Assembly (NCBI RefSeq): GCF_000420485.1
Contig: NZ_ATVA01000014.1
Span: 124,001-188,000 of the forward strand
Length of the DNA stretch: 64,000 nucleotides
Source: Paucidesulfovibrio longus DSM 6739
GTDB lineage: Bacteria; Desulfobacterota; Desulfovibrionia; Desulfovibrionales; Desulfovibrionaceae
Reading direction: 5' to 3'
The translations under genes and the position numbers were made by a program. This document shows, one piece after another, positions 24,116 to 32,491 of this stretch; within the stretch, counting starts at the first letter, position 1, and each line of letters starts with the position of its first letter. Below the pieces are notes generated by a model, which saw nothing but the letters and a program-made list of their open reading frames with translations, was not told where the DNA came from and ran no database searches.

Positions 24116-24946
24116 ATGCCTGAACTCCCCGAAGTGGAAACCATCGCTCGCGGGCTGCGCGAAACCCTGCCGGGGCTCGTCTTTGCCGATGTCGCGGTCT
24201 ACGATCTGCGGGCCGTGCCCGGCCACGAGCCGGAGGAGTTCGTGCGCCGCACGCGGGGCCGCACCGTGGCGAGCGTCCGTCGCCGGGGCAAGCTGCTGCT
24301 CCTCGACCTGGAGTTCGACGCCGCGCCGCAGTCCGTGCTCACGGTGCACCTGCGCATGACGGGCCGGGTCGTGCACGGACCGGACCGCGCGCCGGAATCC
24401 CACGAGCGCATCCGTTTCTCCATGAACGACGGCAGCGTATTGACCTTTTCGGACGTGCGGCGTTTCGGCGGTTGCCGGGTTTTCACCCCGGCGGAGCTGG
24501 AGCGATGGACCTTCTGGAACGTCCTGGGGCCGGAACCCCTGGAGATCGGCGAGTCCGAATTCGTCGCATTGTTCCGGGGCCGCAGGGCGAAGATCAAGGG
24601 ATTGCTCCTGGACCAGCGCGTCATCGCCGGCGTGGGCAACATCTATGCGGACGAGAGCCTGTTTCGCGCGGGAATCCGCCCGGATGCCGTGGCTTCCGGG
24701 CTTTCGGCGGCCCGGCTGAAGCGTCTGCGCAAGGTGCTCTGCGAAGTGCTGCGGCAGGCCATTGCGGAAAACGGCAGTTCCATCAGTGACTATAGAAATG
24801 CGCGGGGAGACGCTGGCGCGTTTCAGAATTCATTTCAGGTCTATGGGAAAGCCGGAGAACCCTGCGGGCGCTGCGGGCGCACCCTCTGCGGCTGCCGGGT
24901 GGCCGGACGTTCGTCCACATATTGCGACAATTGCCAAACAACCTGA
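24116..24946 (+). CDS. mutM: Formamidopyrimidine-DNA glycosylase
   Basis: 276 residues, standard. The N-terminal catalytic Pro2/Glu3 is in MPELPEVET; VHLRMTGR, DVRRFGG and VGNIYADESLFRAGI are canonical. The C-terminal zinc finger has four Cys in CGRCGRTLC and YCDNCQ. It removes 8-oxoguanine and fapy bases and nicks the strand. Nine bases after the glycosyltransferase gene. Confidence 0.97.
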   Translation: MPELPEVETIARGLRETLPGLVFADVAVYDLRAVPGHEPEEFVRRTRGRTVASVRRRGKLLLLDLEFDAAPQSVLTVHLRMTGRVVHGPDRAPESHERIRFSMNDGSVLTFSDVRRFGGCRVFTPAELERWTFWNVLGPEPLEIGESEFVALFRGRRAKIKGLLLDQRVIAGVGNIYADESLFRAGIRPDAVASGLSAARLKRLRKVLCEVLRQAIAENGSSISDYRNARGDAGAFQNSFQVYGKAGEPCGRCGRTLCGCRVAGRSSTYCDNCQTT

Positions 24947-25024
24947 AATGCTTGGTTATAGTCGTTATTGCGAACGTATGGGCACTCGAAAGATAAACAG
25001 TGTTCAATTTCAATATGTAGAAAG

Positions 25025-25045
25025 TCTCTAGTCATTTTCTAGAGA
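25025..25045 (+). other. Small hairpin in the murJ leader
   Basis: TCTCTAG pairs with CTAGAGA across a seven-base loop, 12 bases before the murJ ATG, in an AT-rich stretch. No T run follows, so it may affect translation or be incidental. Confidence 0.4.
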
Positions 25046-25056
25046 ATCGAGCAATA

Positions 25057-26724
25057 ATGAATACGACAGGTTGCAAGGCAGCCCCGGAATCGGGCGGAAA
25101 GGCCTCCAAAGAGGCGGGAAGCGGGGGCGGGCTGGCCAGGAACACCATGGTGGTGGCCGCTGCCACGTTGATATCGCGCGGGCTTGGATTCGTGCGCGAC
25201 GTGATCGTGGCCTTCGCCCTGGGCGCGGGAGCCTCGGCGGACGCCTTTTTCGTGGCCTTCCGCATCCCCAACCTGATGCGCCGCCTTTTCGGCGAGGGCT
25301 CGCTGACCATGGCCTTCATCCCGGTCTACGCCCGCGTGCGCGAGGAGCAGGGCGAGGCCGCGGCAAGGGAGATGGCCCGCTCCGCCATGATCTGGCTCTG
25401 CCTGATCCTCGGAGCGCTCACGCTGCTGGTGGAGGTGTTCGCCGGGCCTCTGACCTTTCTCATCGCGCCCGGATTCGCGGACAATCCCGAACTCTTCGCG
25501 CTGACCGCGAAGCTCCTGCGGATCTGCTTTCCCTATGTGCTCATGATCTGCGGCGTGGCGCTGTGCATGGGCATCCTCAACGCCCACGACCACTTCATGG
25601 CCCCGGCCTTGTCGCCCGTGATGCTCAACATCGCGCTCATCGCGGCGGCCCTGGCCGGGTATTACTCCGGGGGCGACGTGGCCCTGTGCATGGCCGTTGG
25701 CGTGCTCGCGGGCGGTCTGCTCCAATGGTGGCTCCAGCAGCCCTACCTGCGCGCCCAGGGCTTCACGTGGCGGGGGGCCTGGTCCTGGCGGGACGCGGGC
25801 GTGCGGCGCATGGCCCTGCTCATGCTGCCGACGGTCTTCGGCGCGGCGGTCTATCAGGTCAACATCCTGCTCGGCACCCTGCTGGCCTCGTATCTGCCCG
25901 AAGGCAGCGTCTCCTATCTCTACTACGCGGACCGGCTCGTGCAGTTCCCCCTGGGCGTTTTCGGCATCGCCGTGAGCACGGCGGCCCTGCCCAGCCTCTC
26001 GGTGCTGGCGGCCAAGGGACGCATGCCGGAATTCAACCGGACCCTGCGCACGGCAGTGGGCCTGACCATGTTCATTTCCCTTCCGGCCACCGCCGGATTG
26101 CTGGCCCTGTCCGAGCCGGTGATGCGCCTGCTCTTCCTGCGCGGCGCGTTCACCGCCGAGGCGGTGCAGGCCTCGGCCTCGGCCCTGGTGGCCTATTCCG
26201 CGGGCCTGCCGTTCATCGCGGCCCTGCGTCCTCTGGTGGCGGCGTATTACTCCCTGGAAAACACGCGCACCCCCGTGATTGTGGCCGTGGTCAGCCTGGT
26301 GGTCAACGTGGGCCTCGGCGCGTATTTGATGCAGTATTTCGCGCATGTGGGTCTGGCGGTGGCCGTGAGCGTTTCCGCGGCGGTCAACTTCGGGCTGCTG
26401 CTGACCTTTCTGCGCAAGAGGCTCGACCGCGCGCCTCTGCCCCTGGCCAGCTTCGCCAAGTGCCTCGGCCTTTCCGCCGTGGTCTACGCCGGAGCCTGGG
26501 CCAGCGCCCTGGGGCCGTCCCTGCTCTGGTTCGGGCTGATTCCGGTCTGGATCGTCTTCTACGTCGCCGGGGCCGTGGCCTTGCGCGTGCCCGAGGCGGA
26601 CCTCTTCCTGGGGGCGCTGCGCAGGCGCGTGCGCCGCAACAGGCCGGAAGGCGCTGAACCCGCAAAGGAACAGCCCGGCAGCGCCAACGCGGAAGGCGGC
26701 GGCAAGGGGGAAGACCGGGGATGA
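25057..26724 (+). CDS. murJ: Lipid II flippase MurJ (MviN)
   Basis: 555 residues with about 14 hydrophobic segments. Typical N-terminus NTMVVAAATLISRGLGFVRD then GAGASADAFFVAFRIPNLMRRLFGEGSLTMAFIPVY, including the conserved Arg and acidic pair. Middle: VYQVNILLGTLLASYLPEGS and YYADRLVQFPLGVFGIAVST. It flips lipid-linked peptidoglycan precursor to the outer face. The last 25 residues are polar and variable. No clear ribosome site before the ATG. Confidence 0.97.
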   Translation: MNTTGCKAAPESGGKASKEAGSGGGLARNTMVVAAATLISRGLGFVRDVIVAFALGAGASADAFFVAFRIPNLMRRLFGEGSLTMAFIPVYARVREEQGEAAAREMARSAMIWLCLILGALTLLVEVFAGPLTFLIAPGFADNPELFALTAKLLRICFPYVLMICGVALCMGILNAHDHFMAPALSPVMLNIALIAAALAGYYSGGDVALCMAVGVLAGGLLQWWLQQPYLRAQGFTWRGAWSWRDAGVRRMALLMLPTVFGAAVYQVNILLGTLLASYLPEGSVSYLYYADRLVQFPLGVFGIAVSTAALPSLSVLAAKGRMPEFNRTLRTAVGLTMFISLPATAGLLALSEPVMRLLFLRGAFTAEAVQASASALVAYSAGLPFIAALRPLVAAYYSLENTRTPVIVAVVSLVVNVGLGAYLMQYFAHVGLAVAVSVSAAVNFGLLLTFLRKRLDRAPLPLASFAKCLGLSAVVYAGAWASALGPSLLWFGLIPVWIVFYVAGAVALRVPEADLFLGALRRRVRRNRPEGAEPAKEQPGSANAEGGGKGEDRG

Positions 26725-26742
26725 GCGCGGAGGAGGAGCGCC

Positions 26743-27531
26743 ATGAAGGATTTTGAGGTCGCGCTGGCCCGGCAGCGGTTTCCGCGCGGACTGCGGCAGC
26801 CGGAGGGGGGCTATCGCTTTTCCGGGGATTCCCTGCTCCTGGCCAGCTTCGCGCGCTCCTTCGCCTCGGGCCCGGGGCTGGACCTGGGCACGGGCTGCGG
26901 CGTGGTGGGGCTGGCCTATCTTCTGCGCCACCCGGACGCGGACCTGCACGTGACCGGGGTGGACCGCGAGCCGGAAATGACCCGCGCCGCGCGGGAAAAC
27001 GCCAGGCTCCTCGGCTATGAGGATCGCTTCGCGGTCAAGCTCTCCGACGTCGCGGACTATGATTTCCAGGGCAACCACTTCGAGTTCGCCCTCTGCAACC
27101 CGCCGTTCCGGCCCCGACACAGGGGCCGCGTCAGCCCCAACTCGGCGCGCGCCTCGGCCCGCTTCGAAGGCTCGGACGGGCTGGAGCCCTTTGCGGCTGC
27201 GGCGCGCGTCAGCCTCAAGGACAAGGCCCCGCTCTACCTCGTGCACATCCCGGAGCGCCTGCCGGAAATCGTCGAGGTGCTGCGGAGCAACGGCCTGGAG
27301 CCGAAGCGGATGCGCTTCGTGCACGGGCACGCCGAGGCCGAGGCGCGGGTGGTGCTGCTGGAGGCGCGCAAGAACGGCAAGCCCGGCATGAGCGTGGAGC
27401 CGCCCCTGGTGCTCTACGAGGGCCGGAGCGCCCGCTCCGGGGTGACCGCGAGCGCCCTTGCGTTTTGCCCGTATTTGCAGTGCAATGCCCGCGGGGACGA
27501 GGCAAAGGGAGGAAGCGGACATGGAGCGTGA
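26743..27531 (+). CDS. TrmN6-like tRNA adenine-N6 methyltransferase
   Basis: 262 residues; GGAGGAG lies about nine bases upstream. SAM motif I LDLGTGCGVVGLAYLL, acidic GVDREPEM, and the N6-amino methyltransferase motif NPPF (in LCNPPFRP) as in YfiC/TrmN6, which methylates A37 of tRNA-Val. The N-terminal GGYRFSGDSLLLASF is also typical. It overlaps the DUF3795 gene by 11 bases. Confidence 0.88.
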   Translation: MKDFEVALARQRFPRGLRQPEGGYRFSGDSLLLASFARSFASGPGLDLGTGCGVVGLAYLLRHPDADLHVTGVDREPEMTRAARENARLLGYEDRFAVKLSDVADYDFQGNHFEFALCNPPFRPRHRGRVSPNSARASARFEGSDGLEPFAAAARVSLKDKAPLYLVHIPERLPEIVEVLRSNGLEPKRMRFVHGHAEAEARVVLLEARKNGKPGMSVEPPLVLYEGRSARSGVTASALAFCPYLQCNARGDEAKGGSGHGA

Positions 27532-27970
27532 GCAATTGCTGCGACGGCTGGCCCCGTGCGGATTGAACTGCGGAGCCTGCGTCGCGTTTTCGGATGGCCC
27601 GGTCCGGGCGCACGCCCAGGCCCTGCGCGGCCTGCTCGGCCCGAATTTCGCGAGCTATGCCGAGCGGTTCGCGGGCATGAATCCCGTGTTCGAAGGCTAC
27701 GGGCAATTCGAGGCGCTGCTGGACTGGCTGGCTTCCGGTTCCTGCGAAGGCTGCCGGGGCGAGGGCTGCCTGTTCACGGCCTGCAAGGTCGGCCTTTGCG
27801 TGCGGGAACAGGGAGTGGACTTTTGCTTCCAGTGCGCGGAATTCCCCTGCGGGCGGCACGGCATGCCCGAAATGCTCGCAGCGCGCTGGAAGGCGAACAA
27901 CGAGCGCATGAAGTCCGTTGGAGTCGAGGCCTACCACGAAGCCGTCAAGGACAAACCCAGGTATCCGTAG
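27521..27970 (+). CDS. DUF3795 cysteine-rich protein
   Basis: 149 residues from ATG 27521, preceded by GGGAGG. Cys-rich in the DUF3795 pattern: APCGLNCGACVAF, GSCEGCRGEGCLFTACKVGLCV and FCFQCAEFPCGRH. Probably binds metal; no function is established. The start lies inside the end of the methyltransferase gene, so translation is likely coupled. Confidence 0.85.
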   Translation: MEREQLLRRLAPCGLNCGACVAFSDGPVRAHAQALRGLLGPNFASYAERFAGMNPVFEGYGQFEALLDWLASGSCEGCRGEGCLFTACKVGLCVREQGVDFCFQCAEFPCGRHGMPEMLAARWKANNERMKSVGVEAYHEAVKDKPRYP

Positions 27971-28021: not shown

Positions 28022-29296
28022 ATGATACAACGCATCATCCTCGACGACTTCCTGGCCCACAAGCACACGGAACTGGCCCTCGGACCCGGGGTGACCGTGC
28101 TGACCGGCCCCAACAACAGCGGCAAGTCCGCAATGGTCGAGGCCCTGCGCTGCGTGGCCACCAATCCGCCCCCCCGCCACGTCATCCGGCACGGCGCGAC
28201 CCTGGCGCGGGTGGAGGTCGTGCTGGAAGACGGAACCTCCGTGGCCTGGTGCCGCAAGAAGAACACGGCCTGGTACGAGCTGAAGCCGCCGGGAGCCGAA
28301 GAACCCGAATATTTCCGCAAGCTCGGCCGGGGCATGGTTCCCGATGAAATCCGCGAGGCCCTGCGGCTCGATCTCGTGGACCTGGAAAGCGGCGTGTCCG
28401 TGGACGTGCACGTGGGCGACCAGAAAAAGCCGATATTTCTTTTGGATATGGACGGTGCGGACGCGCGCATGGCCGAGTTTTTTGCCGCGTCCAGCGAGAG
28501 CGCGCATCTCATGGCCATGCAGAAAAGCCTGCAAAGCCGCAACCGCGAGGCCAAGACCCGCGAGCGCACGCTCCGGGTCCGTCTGGAGCAGCTCGCCCAG
28601 GGTCTGGATCGGCTCGCGCCCCTGCCGGAAATCACTCGGCGCGGAATGCTCGCCAGGGAAAGCGGCAAGGCCGCGCAGGCCCTGGAAAAGGCGCTGCCCG
28701 AGCTGGAGCGCGCCCTGTCGCGGGGACGGTCGTTGCGCACCGGGCTGCGCGCGGCTGCCAGGCGCAGCGCCGCCACAAAGCCGCTCGCGGCTCCCCCGCA
28801 GCCCTGGGACGCGCCCGGACTGGAACGCCGCATCGTGGAGATGGCGCGTCTGCGCGTTCGGCAGGATCGCAGCCGCGCGCTTGCTCAGGCGCTCGCGACC
28901 TTGACCGCAACCCCGTCCCCGGCATCCACAACCGAGCTCAAGCAGCTTGTGGACAGCATCAACATGCTGAATAAATTAATGAAAGCTACAAATGGGAAGG
29001 CTGCGTCCCTGACCGGACTGCAAGCGCCGCCGGAACTCTTCAACCAGGATCCCCTGTCCGGGCTTCTGGGCGAATTGGCTCTGGCCGGGCAACGGCTCGA
29101 GGCGGGCGTCAAGGTCGCCGGGGCGCGCGCCGAGCGGCTGGCCGCCGTGCGCGAGGACATTCGGCGGAAGCTGGACAGCATCGGCTCCTGCCCGCTCTGC
29201 GGCGGCAGGCTCGACGCCGAGGCCTTCACCGGGGGCGGCGCGTCGGAAGGCTGCGCCGGGGCCTGCGCCGGAAGCGGGGAGGAATCCCAGCCATGA
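28022..29296 (+). CDS. Rad50/SbcC-like ATPase, N-terminal half with hook
   Basis: 424 residues. Starts like an SMC/Rad50 head: MIQRIILDDFLAHKHTEL, then Walker A G29-PNNSGK-S36. A Q-loop-like region is near DQKKPIFLL. From about 160 to 380 it is rich in charged heptads (coiled coil), ending in C390-PLC-393GG, a CxxC like a Rad50 zinc hook, followed only by a 29-residue tail. There is no Walker B, signature or D-loop: those are in the fourth gene of the operon. Its stop overlaps the next start (ATGA). Inference: this protein and the product of 30644-31342 build one split Rad50-type head. Confidence 0.82.
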   Translation: MIQRIILDDFLAHKHTELALGPGVTVLTGPNNSGKSAMVEALRCVATNPPPRHVIRHGATLARVEVVLEDGTSVAWCRKKNTAWYELKPPGAEEPEYFRKLGRGMVPDEIREALRLDLVDLESGVSVDVHVGDQKKPIFLLDMDGADARMAEFFAASSESAHLMAMQKSLQSRNREAKTRERTLRVRLEQLAQGLDRLAPLPEITRRGMLARESGKAAQALEKALPELERALSRGRSLRTGLRAAARRSAATKPLAAPPQPWDAPGLERRIVEMARLRVRQDRSRALAQALATLTATPSPASTTELKQLVDSINMLNKLMKATNGKAASLTGLQAPPELFNQDPLSGLLGELALAGQRLEAGVKVAGARAERLAAVREDIRRKLDSIGSCPLCGGRLDAEAFTGGGASEGCAGACAGSGEESQP

Positions 29297-30300
29297 GCGC
29301 GACGAACGTCCCGGAGCACGGCCTCGGCTGCGCCGCGCCCGTTGTTCACGATTTGCCGGAGGTCCGGGGCGAGGGCCTGTTCTTCGTGGGCGACCCGCAC
29401 GTGGCGGACGCGCCTCCCGGACACCGGCTGCCCGGCTACCGGGAGCAGATCCTCGACAAGCTGGAGAGATGCCTCCAGGAGGCCGCCGGACGGTCCCTGG
29501 TGCCCGTTTTCCTGGGCGACCTGTTCCACTGGCCGCGCGACAACTCCAATGCGCTCCTGGTGGCCCTGATGGAGCTTTTCCGGCCCCATCGGCCTTTCGT
29601 GCTCGTGGGCAACCACGACAAGCACCTGGCCCGCTGGACCCGCGACGTGTCCCTGGCCGTGCTGCACGAGGCCGGGGTCGTCCGGCTCATGGGCGAGCCG
29701 GGTCCGCAGTTCGTGCTCAAGACCCCGGCGGGCCGCGTGCTCGTGGGCGCGACCCCGGACGGCGGGCGGCTGCCCACGGGGTTCATGCCTGCCGAGGGCG
29801 ACCCGGAGACCGTGCTCTGGTGCGCGCACCACAACATCAGCTTTCCCGATTTTCTGGACCGGGCCGGGCGCATCAAGGAGCTGCCCGGCATCGACTGGCT
29901 GATCAACGGGCACATCCACAGGCCGCAGCCCCAGGTGCGCGCGGGCCGGACTCTCTGGGCCAATCCCGGCAACATCACCCGGCTGACGTTTTCGCGCCGC
30001 TCCCTGAAGCGGGAACCCGCCGCCGCCATCTGGACGCCGGGCTGCGCGGAGCTGGAACGCTGGGTCGTGCCGCATCTGGATTTCTACGAGGTTTTTCCGC
30101 GCCAGGAGTTCCCGCCGGAGGAACAGGAGAGCGAAGGCGAATCGCGTTTTCTGGCCGGACTGGAGCGCCTTGCCTGGCGGCGCAGCCGGGAGGGCACTGG
30201 TCTGAGGGATTTCCTGAGCGCCAACCTGAACCCGGAGCGGCCCGAAACAGGATTGATCTGGGAATTGTACGAGGAGGTCGTCAAGAATGAGCGTGAATAA
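29293..30300 (+). CDS. Mre11/SbcD-like metallophosphoesterase
   Basis: 335 residues. All calcineurin-type metal motifs are present: D34-P-H36, GD76 in FLGDLFHW, GN107-H108D in LVGNHDK, His in CAHHNIS and GHIH in INGHIHRP. The C-terminal third (about 235-335) is acidic and helical, where Mre11 family proteins carry the Rad50-binding part. Four-base overlap with the ATPase-half gene upstream, 14-base overlap with the next. This supports nuclease work with a Rad50-like partner in DNA end processing; the exact substrate is unknown. Confidence 0.87.
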   Translation: MSATNVPEHGLGCAAPVVHDLPEVRGEGLFFVGDPHVADAPPGHRLPGYREQILDKLERCLQEAAGRSLVPVFLGDLFHWPRDNSNALLVALMELFRPHRPFVLVGNHDKHLARWTRDVSLAVLHEAGVVRLMGEPGPQFVLKTPAGRVLVGATPDGGRLPTGFMPAEGDPETVLWCAHHNISFPDFLDRAGRIKELPGIDWLINGHIHRPQPQVRAGRTLWANPGNITRLTFSRRSLKREPAAAIWTPGCAELERWVVPHLDFYEVFPRQEFPPEEQESEGESRFLAGLERLAWRRSREGTGLRDFLSANLNPERPETGLIWELYEEVVKNERE

Positions 30301-30640
30301 CCGCAACGGCTCCGCTCCCGGAACCGGCGGAAACGCGGACGCCCGGCTCCAGCAGGAGCTGGCCGAGCTGAAGCGCGAGTACGAGCGGCTGCGCGACGAG
30401 AAGATCCGTGCGGACAGGGACGTGGAAACCCTGACCCGGCAATTGGAAGAGCTCAAGCTCCAGGCCGAGGCCGAGTACGGCACCTCGGACCCGGAGCGGC
30501 TGCTCGCCCTGCTGGAGCAAAAGCGCGAGGAAAACGCGCGCCTCGTGGCGGACTACCGCGAACACCTTCGGGCCATCCGGGCGGACCTGGAAGCCGTGGA
30601 AAGCGCCGAGCGCAACGCGGGCGACGAAGGAACATTCTAG
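30287..30640 (+). CDS. Small coiled-coil protein of the split Rad50/Mre11 operon
   Basis: 117 residues, nearly all predicted helix with heptads (LQQELAELKREYERLRDEK, RQLEELKLQAEAEY). No catalytic motif. The start overlaps the phosphoesterase by 14 bases; the next gene begins three bases after its stop. It may supply the returning coiled-coil strand missing from the ATPase halves or bridge the subunits; this is inference. Confidence 0.75.
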   Translation: MSVNNRNGSAPGTGGNADARLQQELAELKREYERLRDEKIRADRDVETLTRQLEELKLQAEAEYGTSDPERLLALLEQKREENARLVADYREHLRAIRADLEAVESAERNAGDEGTF

Positions 30641-30643
30641 GCT

Positions 30644-31342
30644 ATGGATTTCAGCGAGCTGGACGAATTGGCGGAACGGGCCGCGCGTCTTTCCGGATTG
30701 GCCCAGGCCCGCCACGAGGAATTCGTGCGCGCCCGGCGCGAGCTGTGCGGGGTGGAGTCGTTTCTGGCCCTGGCGCCCCAGGCGGCAAAAACCCTGGAGG
30801 AGCTTTCCTCCGCGCTCTTCGGCGAGGTGCTCGACGAGATCGAGGCCAACCTGACCCACGCCATCCGCGAGGTGCTCGGCCAGGACCGCACCGTGACCAG
30901 CGAGCGCAGCACCAAGAACAACAAGCTCCAGGTCCATTTTTCCATCTACAGCGGGGGCGACGAGGAGCGGCAGGAGGACATCCTCTCCGGCCAGGGCGGG
31001 TCCGTGGCCAACATCCTTTCCGTGGGCCTGCGGCTCATCGCGCTTTCCCAGCTCGATCCCCGGCGGCATCGCCCCTTCCTGGTCCTCGACGAGCAGGATT
31101 GCTGGCTCAAGCCCGAACTGGTTCCCCGGTTCATGAAGCTCATCGCCCAGATCGCCCGCCGGCTGGAACTTCAGCTGCTGGTCATTTCCCACCATCCCGT
31201 GGACGCCTTTGCCTCGGCCGCGGACCGCGTCTGCCAGCTTTCGCCGGACGCGGAAACCGGGCCGCGCCTGAGCGTGACCCGGATCCGGGGCGTCGAAGAC
31301 GCGGACGGCCGCGCCGAGCCGGATGCGCCGGACGGGGAATGA
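30644..31342 (+). CDS. Rad50/SMC-like ATPase, C-terminal half
   Basis: 232 residues. A helical N-terminal part (about 1-75) precedes the C-lobe of an ABC/SMC head: signature S115-GQGG in LSGQGGSVANILSVGLRL, Walker B with D149-E150 in FLVLDEQD, and an H-loop His183/His184 in VISHHPVDAF. There is no Walker A anywhere, so it cannot be a complete ATPase by itself. It is the missing complement of the protein from 28022-29296. Ends 24 bases before the convergent Fic-like gene. Confidence 0.85.
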   Translation: MDFSELDELAERAARLSGLAQARHEEFVRARRELCGVESFLALAPQAAKTLEELSSALFGEVLDEIEANLTHAIREVLGQDRTVTSERSTKNNKLQVHFSIYSGGDEERQEDILSGQGGSVANILSVGLRLIALSQLDPRRHRPFLVLDEQDCWLKPELVPRFMKLIAQIARRLELQLLVISHHPVDAFASAADRVCQLSPDAETGPRLSVTRIRGVEDADGRAEPDAPDGE

Positions 31343-31366: not shown

Positions 31367-32491
31367 TCAGCCCAGGCAGCGGTCCTGGAAGGTGTAGCTG
31401 GTCCCGTCCTTGGCGAGCAGGCCGAGTTCCAGGAGCCGGTTCAGGTCGCGCCGCGCCGTGTGCTCGCTGACTTTGTCGTAGAGCAGCTTGTAGGGCGTCT
31501 TCAGGAACAGATCCTTGAGCTGGAAGGGCAGGGGGCTTCCGCCCTTGTGCAGCCCGGTCGATTCCGCGCCCAGTCCGGTCTTCCATTCCGCATCCGGAAC
31601 CGTTTCCCGGTCCAGGAGCAGCACCAGCAGGTCGTGGCTGCGCCTGTTGATTTCCCTCGCCTCCAGAAGCAGCCGGAAACGTTCGGTCAGGGCCAGGCGC
31701 CGGAGCGGCGCGGTCAGCCGTTCCCGCAGCACCTCCAGGCTTTCCAGCAGCCCTTCGAGCATGAAGACCAGAAACGAGGTCAGGTCGGCGTTGTCCGCCG
31801 GGGAGTCGTCTAGGGGGAAGAAGCGCAGATACTCGTCCGTGTGGCGGCGGTAGTACATGGGCAGCATCATGCAGGCGAAGCGGAAGCCGCCCACGGCCAG
31901 GATGGAGCTTTCGAAGAAGCGGGCCACCCGTCCGTTGCCCTCGTTGAAGGGGCGCAGCCGGAAGAGATGGTAGTGGAAAAGCCCCGCCCGGACGGCCTGT
32001 TCCAGGTCGTAGAGATCCTGCGCGTTGGTGCGGGTGATCAGGTCCAGAACCCTGTTCTGCACCTCCTTGGCGTATTCGCCCATGCCGCCGGACACGGTGC
32101 CCTGGACCATGACCGCATGGACCTTGCGCATGAAGCCCTCGGAAACGCCGAACACGCCGGATTCGACGCGCCGTTTGGGCAGGGGCGCGTAGGCCAGTCC
32201 CAGGTTGGTTATTTCGCGGCGGGCGCGGGCCACCGTGGGGCCGGCGGGCACGTCCGCCTGGGCGTAGTCCAGGGCCAGCAGCTCGCGGACTTCGTCGAGG
32301 CGCATGGGGTTTCCCGCGATGGCGGCGGTGGCGTGGATGGACAGCTCCACGAGTTCCTGTTCCAGCTGGTCAGCCAGGGCCGGGAGCATCGGAAGCTTGT
32401 TCAGGGCGTCGTTCAGTCCGCGTGCGCGTCCGGCCAGGGGCAGGACGCGGGACGGATCGAAATGCATGGAAAAAGTGTTGTCGATCGTCAT
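31367..32491 (-). CDS. Fic-fold protein lacking catalytic His and inhibitory Glu
   Basis: 374 residues; AGGTGG precedes the ATG. The Fic core at about 170-190 reads LRPFNEGNGRVAR: everything of HPFx(D/E)GNGR is kept except the catalytic His, which is Arg180 (codon CGC). The N-terminal inhibitory motif (S/T)xxxE(G/N) reads TAAIAGN, with Ala59 for Glu. The C-terminal part (about 290-374) looks like a winged helix (HTARRDLNRLLELGLLAKDG), as in Fic-HTH regulators. AMP transfer is therefore unlikely, and a regulatory role is inferred. Convergent with the split Rad50 operon. Confidence 0.88.
   Translation of the reverse strand: MTIDNTFSMHFDPSRVLPLAGRARGLNDALNKLPMLPALADQLEQELVELSIHATAAIAGNPMRLDEVRELLALDYAQADVPAGPTVARARREITNLGLAYAPLPKRRVESGVFGVSEGFMRKVHAVMVQGTVSGGMGEYAKEVQNRVLDLITRTNAQDLYDLEQAVRAGLFHYHLFRLRPFNEGNGRVARFFESSILAVGGFRFACMMLPMYYRRHTDEYLRFFPLDDSPADNADLTSFLVFMLEGLLESLEVLRERLTAPLRRLALTERFRLLLEAREINRRSHDLLVLLLDRETVPDAEWKTGLGAESTGLHKGGSPLPFQLKDLFLKTPYKLLYDKVSEHTARRDLNRLLELGLLAKDGTSYTFQDRCLG

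Follow-up and report, generated by a model that had tools for sequence, protein, structure and literature searches.

In many sulfate-reducing bacteria and planctomycetes, Rad50, the motor of DNA break repair that is elsewhere a single protein, appears to be made as separate pieces from a conserved four-gene cassette that also encodes its partner nuclease, and in the sulfate reducers this cassette appears to take the place of the usual version. We identified the cassette in a 64,000-nucleotide window of the genome of Paucidesulfovibrio longus DSM 6739 (GCF_000420485.1, contig NZ_ATVA01000014.1, positions 124,001 to 188,000), where the genes are tied together by overlaps of 4 and 14 bases and a gap of 3 bases (Table 1). 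The initial annotation of this locus, a split Rad50-Mre11-like system encoded by four coupled genes, was correct in its coordinates, lengths, junctions, and motifs, and remains the best reading. However, its description of the arms as very short does not hold uniformly: gene 1 carries about 230 arm residues, only the return arm on gene 4 is short (about 50 residues), and gene 3 adds two helices.

Table 1. Features of the four-gene cassette and its upstream neighbors, with predicted roles (window positions; motif positions in residues)
Feature	Coordinates	Strand	Length	Description	Support
Gene 1	28022..29296	+	424 aa	N-terminal half of a Rad50-type ABC ATPase: Walker A 29-36, Q-loop-like H130..Q134, helical arm of 39-residue repeats, zinc-hook motif CPLC 390-393 near the C-terminus; no C-lobe motifs	Pfam AAA_23 5e-9; profile hits to Rad50 N-lobes and to Rad50 zinc-hook structures 6zff (3.7e-4) and 1l8d (0.002); aligns to SbcC residues 16-165
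Walker A of gene 1	28106..28129	+		GPNNSGKS	G29, N31, N32, G34, K35, S36 invariant in 20-21 relatives
Zinc hook of gene 1	29189..29200	+		CPLC	CPxC lies 14-38 residues from the C-terminus in relatives
Gene 2	29293..30300	+	335 aa	Mre11/SbcD-type calcineurin-like phosphoesterase with all metal-ligand motifs (D34/H36, D76, N107/H108, H180, H207/H209) and a conserved C-terminal tail (residues about 260-330) that may bind the arm base	Metallophos 5e-8; the only PDB profile hits below 0.01 are all Mre11 (E 0.006-0.009)
Gene 3	30287..30640	+	117 aa	Two-helix coiled-coil protein, probably the detached return arm or a brace of the arm base	Helices at about residues 17-64 and 69-110 in the model; weak coil match to SbcC 690-753; 40-64% identical in relatives
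Gene 4	30644..31342	+	232 aa	C-terminal half of a Rad50-type ABC ATPase: signature SGQGG 115-119, Walker B DE 149-150, H-loop HH 183-184; no Walker A	SMC_N 0.0026 over the C-lobe; best placement on SbcC 1009-1070, weak; motifs invariant
mutM, murJ, methyltransferase, DUF3795	24116..27970	+		Upstream syntenic genes (context, not part of the system)	Conserved next to the cassette in related genera

To investigate whether this arrangement is conserved, we examined related loci in the family and in sequence databases. All 20 relatives first examined in the family, and 67 of 80 database loci (Desulfobacterota, Planctomycetota, and a Bacillota bin), carry the four genes in the order 1-2-3-4, and most of the remaining database loci are cut by contig ends. 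Natural fusions of gene 1 with gene 4 were looked for in 126 loci, and none was seen. In an alignment of 21 relatives, the Walker A, the CPxC, the GQGGSV signature, the DE, and the HH are all invariant or nearly so, and none of the bacterial relatives of gene 1 or gene 4 is a complete ATPase. Although Rad50 is elsewhere one chain, a degraded or frameshifted single-chain Rad50, whether a pseudogene or a sequencing split, is refuted, as the same split point, order, and intact frames recur in dozens of independent assemblies across several phyla, with an intact gene lying between the halves and invariant catalytic motifs in both. Conservation over several phyla likewise excludes chance.

The two halves are obligate partners. 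Gene 1 occurs in 45 of 46 family genomes with gene 4, the 46th having a contig-end remnant, and in 0 of 73 without it (Fisher p 3e-32), and this co-presence holds in four genomes in which the halves are unlinked. Gene 1 ends just after a CPxC zinc-hook motif in 95 of 96 relatives; therefore, Rad50 is cut at its hook, with gene 4, probably together with gene 3, supplying the return half. The order of the halves also follows that of SbcC (Table 1), although the placement of gene 4 and the match of gene 3 to the SbcC coil are weak and the position of gene 3 in the complex is a guess. The length of the arm is quantized in 39-residue repeats, and a leucine-rich repeat (YopM) hit to these repeats was judged to be compositional.

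Whether the two halves fold together was addressed with an AlphaFold model of a read-through chain based on 87 alignment rows. The N-lobe (pLDDT 90-98) and the C-lobe (pLDDT 83-98) were confident, the linker was disordered (pLDDT about 30), and the pTM of 0.51 was higher than either part alone should give by our estimate. The best PDB hit was a Rad50 chain aligned over 1214 columns, while the rmsd to 7zr1 was large because the arms and linker are included. This favors co-folding but is supportive only, as it is indirect evidence from one linked chain with a nonsense linker of about 340 residues, without coordinates or PAE. Foldseek comparisons with head-only PDB entries aligned only part of the chain because of the long insert between the lobes, and the resulting TM values (about 0.3-0.4 of the target) do not test assembly.

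Carriers of the cassette in the family lack ordinary SbcCD and, almost always, the YhaN/YhaO pair, while non-carriers nearly all have one. In the family, SbcC above 100 bits was found in 24 of 119 genomes and SbcD above the cut-off in 21 of 119, none of them in a carrier, and any SbcD-family hit was found in 4 of 46 carriers against 61 of 73 others (p 1e-16; genus level p 4e-7). A weak SbcD hit in one carrier is a generic YaeI-like phosphodiesterase, not Mre11, whereas another carrier has both the cassette and a YhaO-type hit. The genome of P. longus itself has neither SbcC nor SbcD, with no SbcD match (TIGR00619) and only an unrelated C-terminal fragment matching SbcC (TIGR00618). This mutual exclusion is partly confounded by the shared ancestry of the genomes. 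The cassette is also distinct from YhaN/YhaO, in which YhaN is one chain (frames of about 1200-1360 codons in two loci), as gene 1 is a half chain and scores below the PF13514 cut-off (20.4 against 22).

Two other roles were considered, and both appear unlikely. Rad50-like folds are recurrent in defense, and gene 1 hits the PADLOC LmuB profiles at 1e-9 across the N-lobe and coil, as well as many other defense ATPases through the P-loop; the complex could therefore be an antiphage system related to Lamassu, Gabija, or similar SMC-like ATPase systems that senses phage DNA ends and cuts. However, the PADLOC hits to gene 4 are weak, the LmuB similarity is only partial and on a split chain (LmuA itself was not searched for), and the locus shows conserved chromosomal synteny with mutM-murJ-methyltransferase in 12-16 related loci with no recurring defense or mobile neighbors. 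In addition, the cassette is nearly exclusive with SbcCD and YhaN/YhaO and is the sole Mre11-Rad50 candidate found in the genome. Of the two roles proposed in the initial annotation, DNA-end processing is much better supported than defense. No Rfam RNA was found nearby. Alternatively, the cassette could encode a DNA-binding or structural (SMC/ASRP-like) complex in which gene 4 is an ATPase regulator and the phosphoesterase acts on another substrate: the best NCBIfam hit of gene 1 is the archaeal ASRP family (4e-13), gene 2 matches no nuclease equivalog above the cut-off, and the signature motif is noncanonical (GQGGS where LSGGx is canonical). However, the ASRP match covers only the N-half and, at 48.8 bits, is far below the NF045487 cut-off of 300 bits, ASRPs are single chains of about 600 aa (PMC9389158), the hook and order match Rad50, the PDB profile hits of gene 2 are only to Mre11, and the near-exclusivity with SbcCD and YhaN/YhaO also argues against this reading.

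Taken together, we consider it likely that the four genes encode one Mre11-Rad50-type DNA-end-processing complex doing the SbcCD job, in which the head is encoded by two genes rather than one, although this rests on sequence and modeling without biochemistry or genetics. In this model, a gene 1 chain and a gene 4 chain would together form one ATPase head, and two heads would close on two ATP molecules with the Walker A of gene 1 facing the signature of gene 4 across the dimer. The Mre11 dimer formed by gene 2 would sit at the arm base and cut DNA, the two gene 1 hooks would join through zinc, and gene 3 most likely supplies or braces the missing return arm. ATP hydrolysis, nuclease activity, zinc bridging, stoichiometry, and the repair role are inferred.

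We found no published description of a split Rad50 or SbcC, at least among open-licence papers. Rad50 N- and C-halves appear to have been combined as separate polypeptides forming one head in an artificial laboratory construct (PDB 1f2t, whose N-half chain is among the gene 1 profile hits), and Mimivirus R555-type Mre11/Rad50 proteins are fused rather than split (PMC3175470); here, the split is natural and conserved. Split proteins also occur in Microcystis phage Mvi-JY20 and Bacillus phage vB_BboS-125 (compare phrog_16465 and phrog_15167; profile probabilities 99.9% and 99.0%), where they are annotated only as exonuclease, ATPase, or hypothetical. These half-ATPases are strongly diverged and rare (about five phage genomes), and their N-half ends at CxxC. 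Microcystis phage Mvi-JY20 has all four genes in the same order, while the Bacillus phage vB_BboS-125 relatives have no Mre11 gene between the halves. Scans of IMG/VR with gene 4 and with the Mvi-JY20 proteins found no viral relatives.

More tentatively, splitting at the hook may make a mechanically different Rad50, in which the head is a reversible two-protein assembly, the hook sits on a free chain end, and the arm is a modular ruler whose length evolves by gain and loss of exact 39-residue units (258, 297, 336, 375, 414, 453 residues), so that the spacing between head and hook can be tuned. Under this possible reading, the subunit kit is old enough to be shared by several bacterial phyla and tailed phages. 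The quantized arm also offers a natural series for testing whether arm length matters.

Rad50 is taken to be a single chain across all domains of life, with its coiled coil continuous through the hook. A natural, conserved split would show that the covalent return arm is dispensable and would give a ready system for testing how head engagement is coupled to the arm and hook. It would also identify the likely Mre11-Rad50 machine of many sulfate reducers, and perhaps planctomycetes, that would otherwise be scored as lacking SbcCD.

The four open reading frames, their junctions and every motif on which the initial annotation had based a split Rad50-Mre11-like system were confirmed in the sequence. 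Gene 1 has a Walker A and, near its C-terminus, CPLC, but no Walker B, while gene 4 has the signature SGQGG, DE and HH but no Walker A. Gene 2 is a calcineurin-like phosphoesterase (Pfam, 5e-8).

To investigate how widely this arrangement is conserved, we first searched 119 sampled genomes of the family and found gene 4 in 46 of them. In all 20 loci fetched from that set, the four genes lie in the order 1-2-3-4. A scan of 84,980 species genomes then found 125 loci, 80 of which were read; 67 of these hold all four genes in order, never fused, in Desulfovibrionaceae, Syntrophobacteraceae, Desulfobacca, Desulfobacterales, Planctomycetota and a Bacillota bin. Missing members are mostly contig ends, and in one MAG (locus L090, Desulfovibrio sp. 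UBA4079), genes 2, 3 and 4 are broken over several frames, probably owing to sequencing errors. In another database locus, L039, a CPBP/Rce1-like protease gene (PF02517, 3e-17) sits between genes 3 and 4, and what looks like an out-of-frame reading of one was seen in three others (L046, L048 and L049), which probably carry it too. Within the alignment of 21 family members, the catalytic motifs of both halves, the phosphoesterase ligands and the CPxC are invariant or nearly so. A tree of gene 2 separates a planctomycete-rich clade from a Desulfobacterota clade, with four Desulfobacterales inside the former.

The partnership of genes 1 and 4 is obligate in the family sample: gene 1 was found in 45 of the 46 gene-4 genomes and in none of the 73 others (p 3e-32), and the one exception, genome G005, has a gene 1 remnant at a contig start. 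In a few genomes the cassette is broken up, with gene 4 lying apart from genes 1-2-3 in G031 and G058 and gene 1 lying apart from genes 2-3-4 in G190 and G222, yet the halves are both present. Six database loci show gene 4 without neighbors 1-3 in reach; of these, L077 is the G005 contig, and the others (L096, L097, L099, L115 and L125) are planctomycete loci. A second, partial gene 4 copy with two in-frame TGA codons in genome G046 is apparently a decayed duplicate.

Coordinates of features in the window and in related genomes and loci
Feature	Record	Coordinates	Strand
Fic/DOC family protein	Window	31367-32491	-
Gene 1 relative without a hook	L120	2380-4647	
CPBP/Rce1-like protease gene	L039	4944-5855	-
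Four-gene split Mre11-Rad50 cassette	L151 (Microcystis phage Mvi-JY20)	87229-90056	
Second, partial gene 4 copy	G046, C3	305739-305975	

In 95 of 96 gene 1 relatives, including one (locus L084) counted by eye, a CPxC or CxxC lies close to the C-terminus, and where it is CPxC, 14-38 residues follow it. The only gene 1 relative without a hook, that of locus L120, has after its repeats a strongly hydrophobic, membrane-helix-like segment and a new C-terminal region, and could be a membrane-anchored variant or a fusion. The gene 1 profile matches Rad50 N-lobe structures and, with its C-terminal part, the Rad50 zinc-hook structures 6zff (3.7e-4) and 1l8d (0.002). On canonical SbcC, gene 1 aligns to residues 16-165 and gene 4, weakly, to residues 1009-1070. 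Gene 1 is thus the outgoing half of Rad50 and stops at the hook, whereas gene 4 is the end of the returning half. Gene 3, a two-helix protein, is the best candidate for the rest, although this is an inference that rests on a weak coil match.

The arm of gene 1 is also quantised. From the Q-loop region to the hook, gene 1 arms measure 258-260, 296-301, 336-344, 374-383, 414 or 453 residues, overwhelmingly 258 + 39n, and the window's protein is in the shortest class. The 39-residue unit (about L-x-x-PP-x-L...) can be read directly in gene 1 relatives such as those of loci L064, L040 and L120, with several units per protein and a consensus of roughly LAxPPxLADTxxLAxLLxxLxxAxxxLxxxxxRxxALxx.

Genes 1, 3 and 4 of the window happen to share a frame, so the DNA read through the stops gives one 1106-residue chain with gene 2 as out-of-frame filler, and we used this chain to examine whether the two halves may fold together. 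With 18 alignment rows, the structure prediction had a pTM of 0.42; with 87 rows, most of the N-lobe scores 90-98, the C-lobe 83-98, gene 3 about 70-82 and the filler about 30, and the pTM rises to 0.51. By our estimate, either part alone would reach only about 0.4, because the filler and the unplaced part contribute little, so the model probably places the halves together, although neither this argument nor the structural comparison that follows is a direct measurement of the interface. The best PDB match is a full Rad50 chain (7zr1, E about 2e-9, 1214 columns), with a TM to target of 0.35, or about 273 residues' worth, against about 151 for the head-only construct of the same protein (5dac).

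The distribution of the cassette was then compared with that of SbcCD. In the 119 family genomes, real SbcC (above 100 bits) is in 24 and SbcD above cut-off is in 21, and none of these is among the 46 carriers. When every SbcD-family hit is counted, 61 of 73 non-carriers but only 4 of 46 carriers have one, and the one of those four examined is a generic phosphodiesterase. The lower-scoring hits in non-carriers were checked by domain search in two genomes and are YhaO-like proteins beside a YhaN-like chain of 1200-1360 codons. At genus level, the corresponding counts are 3 of 18 against 24 of 26 (p 4e-7). Across the phylum, 2 of 20 carriers against 226 of 375 others have an SbcD-family hit. The window's own genome, 99.99% complete, has none. 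These tests, which did not extend to planctomycetes, share the caveat of common ancestry.

In related genera, the cassette follows mutM, murJ, a TrmN/PrmC-like methyltransferase and a DUF3795 gene. No defense or mobile genes recur, and the Fic/DOC family protein that lies directly downstream in the window, in convergent orientation, is not conserved beside the cassette. This context, together with the exclusion pattern, favors housekeeping DNA-end processing over a role in defense.

Relatives of these genes also occur in phages. Microcystis phage Mvi-JY20 encodes, all as hypothetical proteins, 332-, 319-, 94- and 205-residue relatives of genes 1-4 in the same order, the first ending in CSQC; this is a complete, unannotated cassette in a tailed phage. 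Bacillus phage vB_BboS-125 has half-ATPases with an AP2 gene and a 78-residue coil between, the first ending in CPLC, and no Mre11 there. In addition, a metagenomic huge phage (LR745208) has relatives of genes 1, 2 and 4, Microbacterium phage Magritte has distant copies of both halves, and Tunturiibacter phage Tunturi_5 has a gene 4 relative. Profile comparison links them to the bacterial families at 99% or better. They are rare among the 50,697 phage records.

Full-text literature searches, which did not cover most subscription journals and bioRxiv preprints, found no description of a split Rad50 or split SbcC; the nearest are the archaeal ASRPs, which are single chain (PMC9389158), and Mre11/Rad50 fusions (PMC3175470). 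The cassette likely works like SbcCD, but it is not a standard SbcCD, as it lacks the single-chain head that is a defining feature. It is best described as a natural two-part (with gene 3, perhaps three-part) Rad50 with its Mre11, conserved and apparently the working Mre11-Rad50 machine of its hosts.
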